Positions 8,684 to 29,179 of a stretch of 30,743 nt of DNA are shown here, one piece after another (the stretch's first letter is position 1; every line of letters begins with the position of its first letter). The notes below the pieces were generated by a model. That model did not search any database. It worked only from the letters and a program-made list of their open reading frames with translations, and had not been told where the DNA came from. Origin of the DNA: a virus; IMG/VR virus record IMGVR_UViG_3300024343_000071, positions 1 through 30,743 of that record; one strand, given 5' to 3'. A program made the translations under genes and the position numbers.

Positions 8684-8691
8684 GATATATA
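8684..8691 (+). promoter_or_regulatory. GATATATA motif (late-promoter-like)
   Basis: An exact copy of the octamer found before late genes. Here a strong terminator lies 20 bases downstream, so a transcript from it would be only about 45 bases unless polymerase reads through into nrdB. Confidence 0.3.
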
Positions 8692-23599: not shown

Positions 23600-23974
23600 G
23601 TGGCTAGAAAAAAGAATTACTTAAATAATAGAGATCTTTATGACGAAATGAAGCTTTCAAAAGAACAAGATAAGCTAACTCCGAATGCGGAGAAGATGCT
23701 TATTCTTCTTGCTGAAAGAACTATCAATCGCATGAAATATGTTAGCGAAGACGATAGAATGGATTGCCTCCAATTCGCTATTTTAGATCTACTTAAATAC
23801 TGGAGAAACTTTAATCCAGATTATCCAAACGCGTTTGCATATTTTACAGAAATTGCTAAACGAGGATATGCTAAAGGTTGGAATAAGATTCATCCACAGA
23901 AATATAAAGGAACTATTTCAATTGATGGTTCTAACGATTATAGTGGAGAACAGACTGGAATTTATACCATCTAA
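23600..23974 (+). CDS. 55: late transcription sigma factor gp55-like
   Basis: The 124-residue protein aligns by eye with the conserved centre of T4 gp55: LLAERTINRMKYVSEDDRMD, DCLQFAILDLLKYWRNFNP and NAFAYFTEIAKRGYAKGWNK match gp55's LSKRFNFSGYTQSWKQEM, ADGIEASIKGLHNFDE and HAYITQACFNAFVQRI. This is the sigma region-2-like core that reads a -10 element. It starts with GTG (23600); no nearer ATG fits. T4 gp55 (185 residues) ends in a clamp-binding tail SLDFLYE; this one stops at EQTGIYTI and lacks such a tail. It would direct the host polymerase to late promoters, probably the GATATATA elements. Confidence 0.75.
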   Translation: MARKKNYLNNRDLYDEMKLSKEQDKLTPNAEKMLILLAERTINRMKYVSEDDRMDCLQFAILDLLKYWRNFNPDYPNAFAYFTEIAKRGYAKGWNKIHPQKYKGTISIDGSNDYSGEQTGIYTI

Positions 23975-24463
23975 ATGTCAATTAAAAACGTCAAACCTAC
24001 TAAAAACTCAGGGTTTAATCAAGGATATTTTACCCCACAATTCCCACAAAAATATGTTGGACCAACTCCGATCATATATAGATCTTCATGGGAACGTAAG
24101 TTTATGATATGGTGCGATGTTAATGATAAAGTAACGCATTGGTCAAGTGAACCTGTAGAAATTAAATATTGGTCAAGACAGGATAATAAACCACATAAAT
24201 ACTATCCAGATTTTTATTTTAAACAGATTCAGCAAGATGACACAGTTAAAGAATATCTAGTTGAAATCAAACCCAAAGCACAGATTCAAAAACCACAACC
24301 ACCCAAGCAAAATTCAAGAAAAGCATTAGAATCCTATAAATTTCTAGCCGAACAGTATGTTAAAAATATGGATAAATATAATGCAGCTAAAAGCTATTGC
24401 GAAGGTAGGGGTTGGAATTTTATAGTACTAACCGAAGATACGATGTTAAATGGGTTACGTTAA
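23975..24463 (+). CDS. 4: head completion protein gp4 (gp50)
   Basis: The 162-residue protein contains GYFTPQFPQKYVGPTPIIYR, SSWERKFMIWCDVNDKVTHW, SSEPVEIKYWSRQDNKPHKY, YPDFYF, EYLVEIKPKAQ and YCEGRGWNFIVLTED. These match T4 gp4 (YRSSWELKFMRWCD, FPDFYVK, IEVKPKKQ, GWEFKIITEDEL) as remembered. The E-x-x-F...DF...EIKPK order is that of a PD-(D/E)XK-type nuclease fold. gp4 acts after DNA packaging to finish the head. Its ATG follows the gp55 stop directly, and its end overlaps the next gene by 14 bases. Confidence 0.88.
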   Translation: MSIKNVKPTKNSGFNQGYFTPQFPQKYVGPTPIIYRSSWERKFMIWCDVNDKVTHWSSEPVEIKYWSRQDNKPHKYYPDFYFKQIQQDDTVKEYLVEIKPKAQIQKPQPPKQNSRKALESYKFLAEQYVKNMDKYNAAKSYCEGRGWNFIVLTEDTMLNGLR

Positions 24464-27072: not shown

Positions 27073-27080
27073 GATATATA
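27073..27080 (+). promoter_or_regulatory. GATATATA late promoter element
   Basis: The octamer ends 25 bases before the protease-scaffold ATG. Confidence 0.6.
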
Positions 27081-27105: not shown

Positions 27106-29064
27106 ATGAGCAATAAAGACCTATTAATCTTAGAGAGATCTTCGTCTGAATTAGAATTTAAAAGCGAAGCAGGTGTTTATATTCTTGAAGGTATCTTCGG
27201 CGAGTTAGATAAAAAGAATCGTAACAACCGTATTTATACTGCAGAAGAATATTTACCACAAATCGAGGCTCTTCAAGATAAAATTAAGGCATCTAAGCTT
27301 TTAGGTGAATTAGATCACCCACAAAACTTTGACGTTTCTTTAAAGAATGTTTCTCACATTATTGAAGAAATCACATATGATGCTGAAAACAAACAAATCA
27401 AAGGTCGTATCCGTTTATTAGATACTGATGCAGGCCGTCAAGCTAAAGCATTAGTTGATGCTGGAGTTCCACTTCAAATTTCATCAAGAGCTGCGGGTGC
27501 AGTTGAATCTAATGGTCAAGTAAAAATTAAACAATTATTTACTTATGACTTAGTCGCTGATCCAGGATTTGAAAACGCTGAATTAAAGCGCGTAAACGAA
27601 TCTTATGGATTTGAAAACGATTCAGATATTCAAATTTACGAAATCAGTGGTCCAGCTAACTTAACAGAAAACACAACAATTGAAAATAAAGAACCAGAAA
27701 AAATGGCAGAATCTAAATTTATCACTGTTGAAGATTTTAACAAATATTCTCAATATCTTTCTGAAGAAATTAAGGGCATTAAACAATCTTTAACTGAAGC
27801 TAATGAAAGCGGTAATGAAACCGAATTAGCAAACTTAAAGGAGTATGCAACTTATTTGGCTGAAAAATTAGATCAGTCAATTCAATACTCTGAGCATGTT
27901 GCTGAGAAAGCTGACCAATCTATTCAATACGCTGAAACTTTAGCTGAGAAATTAGATCAGTCAATCCAATACTCTGAGCACATTGCTGAAGGTTTTACAC
28001 AAATTAAAGAATATACTAATTACTTAGCAGAATCTTATAACGAAGGTGCAACTACACATGCTAATTTATTAGAATACATCGAATACTTAAAAGAGAACTT
28101 AGAAAAAGTTACTGAATATGCAGAATACGTTGCTGAAACAGTTAACTCTAACTTATTAGTTGAAGACACTGCTGAAGAGATCGAAGATCAAGAAGTTGCA
28201 TTAGGCGAGCCAGAAAAAGTAGAAGATGAAGGCGAATTAACTGAAGCTGAAGAAGCTGGAATTCCTGCTGAAGAATTAGAGGATGAAACTAAAGAAGTTG
28301 ATTCAGACGTTGAAGAACCAGTAAACGTTGAAAAAGATCTTGAATTAGAAGGTGAAGGCGACGCTGAAGGCGAAGAAATTACTGAAGCAGAAGAAACTGA
28401 AGCAGAAGAAACTGAAGCAGAAGCAGCAGCAGAAGAGGCTGAAGCAGAAGAAGCAACAGAAGAGGCAGAGGAAGCAGCAGAAGAGGCTGAAGAAGCAGCA
28501 GAAGAGGCTGAAGAAGCAGCAGAAGAATCTAAAGAAGATACAATGGAATCTTATAAAAATTCAATCACTGAAAAACTTTCTGCTCTTATTAATAAAGCAC
28601 AAGAAAAAAAGACAAATGATCCACACTTCTTTAAGTTTGTATCTGAGTCAACAAGAAACTCTTATAACGAATTATCAATTGAAGAAAGAACTAAAGTATT
28701 AACTGCAGTTGAAGGTCGTGGTTTCTTAACTGAAGGTCAAATCATCACATTATGGAATTCAGCATTAATTACTGATGCTCCAACTAATGAGCCTAATGTT
28801 ACAAAGATGATGCCTATCGAATATAAAGAAAGATGGAATACTCTTTCTGAATCTAAGAAAGCACAAATCTTAGCTCAATCTAAATACCACAAATTAGAAA
28901 CTGAATATCAAGTTGCTAATTTCTGGCAGACAAGAGATCTAAGAGAAGTTGCACCAGTAATGGAAAAAGTTGCAATGATCAAAGAATCTAAAGAAGAGTC
29001 AAAAACTTTAGGTTATGATACAACTTCTATTGCTGCTGAACTTGCTAAGAGATTCAAAAAGTAA
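27106..29064 (+). CDS. 21: prohead protease-scaffold fusion (gp21 + gp22)
   Basis: The 652-residue protein is two T4 proteins in one frame. Residues 1-175 are a gp21-type serine protease: FGELDKKNRNNRIY (31-44), GELDHP with H71, QISSRAAG with S126/S127, and LVADPGF (149-155). Residues 200-652 are scaffold-like: 14-residue coiled-coil repeats (247-302), an acidic Ala/Glu stretch (350-478) and a helical C-terminal domain (480-652). T4 gp21 is 212 residues and gp22 269, encoded separately. An in-frame ATG at 27703 (M200, MAESKFITVEDF) could give free scaffold by internal initiation. L/I/V-x-E triplets such as VNE 163-165 could release the domains by self-cleavage. Confidence 0.88.
   Translation: MSNKDLLILERSSSELEFKSEAGVYILEGIFGELDKKNRNNRIYTAEEYLPQIEALQDKIKASKLLGELDHPQNFDVSLKNVSHIIEEITYDAENKQIKGRIRLLDTDAGRQAKALVDAGVPLQISSRAAGAVESNGQVKIKQLFTYDLVADPGFENAELKRVNESYGFENDSDIQIYEISGPANLTENTTIENKEPEKMAESKFITVEDFNKYSQYLSEEIKGIKQSLTEANESGNETELANLKEYATYLAEKLDQSIQYSEHVAEKADQSIQYAETLAEKLDQSIQYSEHIAEGFTQIKEYTNYLAESYNEGATTHANLLEYIEYLKENLEKVTEYAEYVAETVNSNLLVEDTAEEIEDQEVALGEPEKVEDEGELTEAEEAGIPAEELEDETKEVDSDVEEPVNVEKDLELEGEGDAEGEEITEAEETEAEETEAEAAAEEAEAEEATEEAEEAAEEAEEAAEEAEEAAEESKEDTMESYKNSITEKLSALINKAQEKKTNDPHFFKFVSESTRNSYNELSIEERTKVLTAVEGRGFLTEGQIITLWNSALITDAPTNEPNVTKMMPIEYKERWNTLSESKKAQILAQSKYHKLETEYQVANFWQTRDLREVAPVMEKVAMIKESKEESKTLGYDTTSIAAELAKRFKK
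27703..27705 (+). other. 22: possible internal start of free scaffold protein
   Basis: ATG for M200 of the fusion, at the boundary between protease and scaffold, preceded by an A-rich stretch like other starts in this genome. The product would be 453 residues and begin MAESKFITVEDF. Confidence 0.4.
27844..28011 (+). repeat. 42-bp tandem repeat encoding 14-residue coiled-coil units
   Basis: Four consecutive 14-residue units (two heptads each) start Y and contain AEK-DQSIQ: YATYLAEKLDQSIQ, YSEHVAEKADQSIQ, YAETLAEKLDQSIQ, and the diverged YSEHIAEGFTQIKE. Units 1 and 3 are nearly identical in DNA. More diverged units follow to about residue 345. Confidence 0.75.
28384..28530 (+). repeat. low-complexity Glu/Ala repeat
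   Basis: Short tandem repeats of GCAGAAGAGGCTGAAGAA-type units encode an acidic Ala/Glu run. It is part of the scaffold region of the fusion protein and likely variable in length. Confidence 0.75.
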
Positions 29065-29084
29065 TCAAGATAAATATTAAAACA

Positions 29085-29122
29085 AAATAGGAGGTTTATT
29101 CTAAGTATTAGACCTCCTATTT
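29085..29122 (+). terminator. hairpin terminator before the capsid gene
   Basis: A perfect 11-bp stem (29085-29095 with 29112-29122) encloses 16 bases. The following T-run is broken (ATTTAATTTACT), so termination may be partial. The AGGAGG inside the left arm is paired and far from any start. Confidence 0.65.
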
Positions 29123-29179
29123 AATTTACTATAAAAAATTAAAAAAATAAAAAAATCATTTTTTTACTCTTTTAATCAG

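Follow-up and report, generated by a model that had tools for sequence, protein, structure and literature searches.

The scaffold of phage lambda is nested within the protease gene, as Nu3 within C. In PMC10695390, nu3 is given as a scaffold gene alongside C. Mu and Mu-like phages also have an in-frame scaffold start inside the protease gene, where an SD sequence precedes the internal start; the nesting of scaffold genes in other phages, to which an earlier note on the DNA studied here alluded, thus has a real precedent in Mu (PMC4378225). In T4, the known internal start inside the protease is Met45, which gives gp21s; the recognition sequence of gp21 is [LI]xE, and the enzyme, which carries a LIE-9 motif, is thought to process itself (PMC9026906). 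The T4 core contains approximately 576 copies of gp22 to 100 copies of gp21 (PMC5694885).

We analyzed a 30,743-nucleotide stretch of viral DNA, hereafter the window (positions 1 to 30,743 of IMG/VR record IMGVR_UViG_3300024343_000071), from a phage whose host, judged from start context and relatives, probably belongs to the Bacteroidota. As the earlier note had claimed, protease and scaffold are fused in a single 652-residue protein, and the open frame was confirmed (Table 1). An S77 prohead protease opens the product, and a disordered linker joins it to a coiled coil, behind which come an acidic tract and, at the C-terminus, a helical domain; the AF2 model of the whole protein is of modest confidence (pLDDT 60). 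The fused gene sits between the gp20 and gp23 genes, the place of the separate genes 21 and 22 in T4, whose corresponding interval is made up of the separate genes 67, 68, 21, 22 and 23. The genes on its 5' side code for a late sigma factor-like protein, a gp4-like head-closure protein, a gp2-like end protector, the gp20 portal and an acidic 114-aa protein that occupies the place of T4 gp67; the gp23 gene lies on its 3' side. The gp4-like product (23975-24463) matches a TnsA-like endonuclease N-terminal domain (E=1e-17).

Table 1. Features of the fused gene and its surroundings, in window positions
Feature	Position	Strand	Basis
Putative late-promoter element GATATATA	27073..27080	+	About 33 nt before fused gene; 44/44 relatives
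Fused protease-scaffold gene, 652 aa	27106..29064	+	One uninterrupted frame; in-frame fusion in 180/180 IMG/VR copies
T4 gp21-type prohead protease part, residues 1-179	27106..27642	+	Pfam S77; 5JBL by sequence and fold
Candidate self-cleavage motif I-L-E, residues 8-10	27127..27135	+	[LI]xE in 44/44; cleavage inferred
Putative catalytic His71	27316..27318	+	Invariant in homologue alignments; aligns with gp21 His85
Putative catalytic Ser127	27484..27486	+	Invariant; aligns with Ser140, Ser of gp21 'SR.LG'
Hypervariable disordered linker, residues 168-199	27607..27702	+	Low column conservation; pLDDT <50
Candidate self-cleavage motif I-Y-E, residues 177-179	27634..27642	+	[LI]xE in 43/44; cleavage inferred
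Putative A-rich translation-initiation region before M200	27679..27702	+	16 A in 24 nt, window copy
Candidate internal start codon ATG (M200)	27703..27705	+	Invariant (74/74, 85/85); retained in 9 additional divergent copies
Nested scaffold reading frame, 453 aa	27703..29064	+	Inferred product of M200 initiation
Coiled-coil part, residues 208-352	27727..28161	+	AF2 helices; [LI]xE-rich; tandem repeats
Acidic disordered tract, ~ residues 353-447	28162..28446	+	pLDDT mostly <50; composition
Conserved helical C-terminal scaffold domain, residues 476-652	28531..29061	+	AF2 mean pLDDT 76
Hairpin between fused and major capsid protein genes	29080..29127	+	Inverted repeat, 19-nt arms, 84% complementary

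The Pfam family Peptidase_S77 (PF03420, T4 gp21) matches residues 20-136 (E=5.8e-12; 45.9 bits against a curated cut-off of 27), and T4 gp21 (5JBL) was the only significant PDB sequence match (E=8e-6). The AF2 protease domain spans approximately residues 6-166. When the model was compared with known structures by Foldseek, a check that the earlier note had suggested for prohead proteases, only three chains of 5JBL fell below E=0.001 (best E=4e-7). The gp21-type domain named in that note is thus borne out by sequence and by fold. Its catalytic candidates were H71 and S126/127; H71 and S127 take the catalytic places, and S126 is not the aligned serine. The gp21 His85 position is Asn in the 5JBL construct.

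Downstream of the protease, AF2 predicts helices that are followed by an acidic disordered stretch, in agreement with the coiled-coil and acidic scaffold that had been noticed in frame. The scaffold lies between protease and major capsid protein, as does gp22. Its similarity to T4 gp22 is not significant (hhalign probability below 5%); the only likeness is a suggestive 30-column match (46%) in a hand-picked region. No PHROG scaffold family was matched by the scaffold, and Pfam and PHROG matches of the coil were rejected as low-complexity noise. The C-terminal domain contains an internal duplication, and its two halves align (hhalign 85%, E=6e-6). The duplicated unit is of about 48 residues, its copies have diverged, and one of them shows a weak likeness to part of T4 gp22. 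A search for the domain in bacterial genomes gave no confirmed occurrence. A 389-aa protein of Virus NIOZ-UU157 (BFVD A0A7S9SUJ9) matches this domain with 33% identity and may be an unfused scaffold.

The earlier note had drawn attention to M200 at the junction of the two parts. In the AF2 model M200 falls inside a low-confidence linker (168-207), eight residues ahead of the first scaffold helix. Comparison of relatives, as the note had advised, revealed a Met aligned with M200 in every one of 74 distinct homologues, a set in which 44 share less than 90% identity with one another. The linker columns near it fall to 0.2-0.5 conservation with indels on both sides, and the residues just after it differ in sequence and in length (MA-ESKF, MENNARF, ME---EF). 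The junction Met is also kept in 9 further copies, the non-identical ones at 37-49% identity; across this more divergent group, anything from 7 to 24 residues separates it from the first helix. A sister group (L296, L298, L301, L302, L305 and L308) has it 18-24 residues before the first helix and retains A-rich upstream DNA. In the huge-phage clade the Met is present in 85 of 85 sequences; since the surrounding peptide is conserved there too, the Met is weaker evidence in that clade.

In Flavobacterium johnsoniae, initiation is favored by A at -3, -6, -12 and -13 and by weak folding, and extra AUGs tend to be kept away from starts (PMC6847099). The DNA around M200 likewise has the character of a start. 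Counted over the 24 nt upstream, A averages 16.4 at M200 and 13.0 at authentic starts, but 9.2 at the remaining Mets of these genes and 8.2 where other genes have an in-frame Met; A occupies -3 in 93% of cases and -13 in 86%. Over the full length of the gene, A content peaks at M200 or at most 11 codons upstream in 43 of 44 sequences, and none of the 44 has another ATG at -30 to -1, as against about half for other Mets. Given the amino acids, the synonymous codons at -8 to -1 are A-enriched (722 vs 639.5 expected, z=12.9), with a positive excess in 14 of 14 clusters at 70% identity; because the sequences are related by common ancestry and not independent, the P values are overstated. Local folding at M200 is weak (-3.0 vs -7.6 kcal/mol). 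As a control, we considered 19 near-invariant Met columns in the portal, major capsid protein and fused genes: only the N-terminal start Met of the portal and M200 are A-rich upstream. An SD-like motif at -16 to -4 was seen in 0 of 44 M200 sites and in 1% of real starts of these phages (n=258), which in this respect resemble Bacteroidota, where A-rich, weakly folded leaders free of AUG take the role of SD motifs. The averaged start-site score of M200 (4.1) is lower than that of the fused gene's own start (7.9), so that the ratio proposed in the earlier note, a little fusion to much free scaffold, cannot be read from the sequence. The window's own M200 scores 2.4 compared to a real-start mean of 7.6, with ordinary local folding (33rd percentile).

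We propose, with a probability of about 0.86, that this gene combines a protease-scaffold fusion with a selected internal start at M200 and so would give two proteins from one frame. The fusion and the selection on the start rest on comparison; expression, the ratio of the products, incorporation and self-cleavage are what we infer from them. A single mRNA from the putative late promoter GATATATA would be translated in two ways. Initiation at 27106 would yield the 652-aa fusion, whose own scaffold part would bring the protease into the prohead core, and initiation at AUG 27703, an A-rich, unstructured, SD-free site of the Bacteroidota type, would yield 453 aa of free scaffold. A plain fusion forces a 1:1 ratio of protease to scaffold, and the second start lifts this constraint: two starts would allow an excess of scaffold over protease, as in T4, while the fraction of scaffold chains bearing protease would guarantee its incorporation. 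Once the prohead has closed, the protease would cut the core at [LI]xE, including ILE10 and IYE179 beside its own domain, and the scaffold would be destroyed. The ILE motif is the counterpart of T4 gp21 LIE-9, and IYE179 stands between protease and scaffold, on the border of the variable linker. Such motifs number 10 in the coiled coil of the window against 4.0 in shuffles (p=0.001), and their density in the scaffold is 3.6 per 100 aa against 1.9. Self-release and scaffold destruction are plausible because [LI]xE is dense, is conserved beside the protease and is joined to a likeness to T4 gp21.

The same motifs can be read differently. If the fusion alone were translated, self-cleavage, for example at IYE179, could separate the two parts, and the Met would be kept for a protein reason. 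The near-universal motifs at residues 8-10 and 177-179 would suit this, as would the self-processing of T4 gp21 (PMC9026906) and the existence of Met-less fused relatives. Cleavage alone, however, leaves unexplained both why the Met never changes although the linker around it is disordered and carries indels to either side, and the A-rich synonymous choice and lack of upstream AUGs, and we regard it as unlikely. It is more improbable still that M200 is an unused relic of the start of a once-separate scaffold gene. Separate genes do occur in T4, cyanophages, PA5oct and PAU, but a relic should decay, yet all homologues at 35-60% identity retain the Met, and the clade of the window retains its upstream context as well.

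A free scaffold could also arise from an internal promoter instead of internal translation, and T4 gene 17 is annotated with internal transcription and in-frame products. The distribution of GATATATA, which is probably a late promoter, speaks against this: 44 of 44 relatives have it 27-42 nt ahead of the fused gene and 33 of 40 have it ahead of the major capsid protein gene, but none of 44 has it within 120 nt of M200 and none of 44 inside the fused ORF. Most likely, therefore, it is translation and not transcription that starts at M200, and we consider an internal promoter highly improbable. In the window GATATATA is found at 8684, 12384, 21551, 22698, 26682, 27073 and 29180, ahead of genes; all 7 copies are on the + strand, against a chance expectation of 2.2. 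A gp55-like late sigma gene is located at 23600-23974. The hairpin at 29080-29127, upstream of the putative major capsid protein promoter, is possibly a terminator or processing site; no Rfam element was found. The internal initiation at M200 first put forward in the earlier note is strongly supported by the invariant Met, the A-rich context, the codon skew, the lack of a nearby AUG and the lack of an internal promoter.

Finally, a sequencing frameshift that joined two genes, which the earlier note had named as a refutation, is excluded because the two parts share one frame in all 180 IMG/VR copies that contain both. These copies derive from different metagenomes, although many of the contigs are near-identical; the one exception is cut by a contig end. 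The huge-phage genomes are fused likewise. No split version was found in the clade of the window among the 180, and the fusion extends to five huge-phage genomes and 80 of their IMG/VR relatives. The note would also have been contradicted by a separate scaffold gene elsewhere. A scaffold profile run against 12 related contigs, 130-256 kb in length, found one locus only in each, a search that detects homologues and that an unrelated scaffold would escape.

A fused gene with a related C-terminal scaffold region is also present in Tenacibaculum phages PTm1 and pT24, Chryseobacterium phage MA9V-2 and Prevotella Lak phages. These have no convincing junction Met with an A-rich context; fusion without a nested scaffold is thus viable. 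A search with the pT24 protease yielded five weak relatives besides a single copy of pT24 itself. The MA9V-2 frame (L026:5908-9531) encodes 1207 aa, far longer than the others, and has many [LI]NES motifs that resemble prohead protease cleavage sites. In the protease tree, which includes several long branches, the fusions that carry the junction Met cluster together (support 88/96), the Met-less fusions of Lak, PTm1, pT24 and MA9V-2 are nearby, and the separate genes of T4, cyanophages and PA5oct fall outside. PAU (L027:4914-6490) has separate protease and scaffold genes, yet its protease is placed among the fused, which suggests possible re-splitting or repeated fusion.

We found no description of a nested start in this lineage in the openly licensed PMC literature; an earlier account elsewhere is possible. 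On present evidence we think it likely that a widespread T4-type lineage of Bacteroidota phages independently reached the nesting of Mu and lambda, with linker codons doubling as an A-rich, SD-independent landing site. T4-type head assembly would then gain a second design, in which the protease is built into the core and the internal start sets scaffold stoichiometry, and Bacteroidota phages would offer a clear natural case of SD-free internal translation initiation. Because the nested scaffold escapes gene callers, one of the most abundant assembly proteins is probably absent from hundreds of phage records. We predict that A-rich patches ahead of conserved in-frame Mets can expose other nested genes in these phages.

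Nesting itself is known from Mu; here it would occur among T4-type proteases and depend on a start that lacks an SD sequence. As in Mu, the protease comes first, the scaffold is the C-terminal part of the frame and there is a second in-frame start, here putative. The internal start of Mu-like phages is preceded by an SD sequence, whereas this locus has an A-rich non-SD site and an S77 (T4 gp21) protease. Lambda gpC is of the S49-type protease family and its host is of the SD type, both unlike the system described here. With T4 the locus shares the protease family, the order gp20-(acidic gene)-gp21-scaffold-gp23 and an acidic scaffold with [LI]xE motifs; it differs from T4, where genes 21 and 22 are separate, in the fusion and in a scaffold without significant similarity to gp22.
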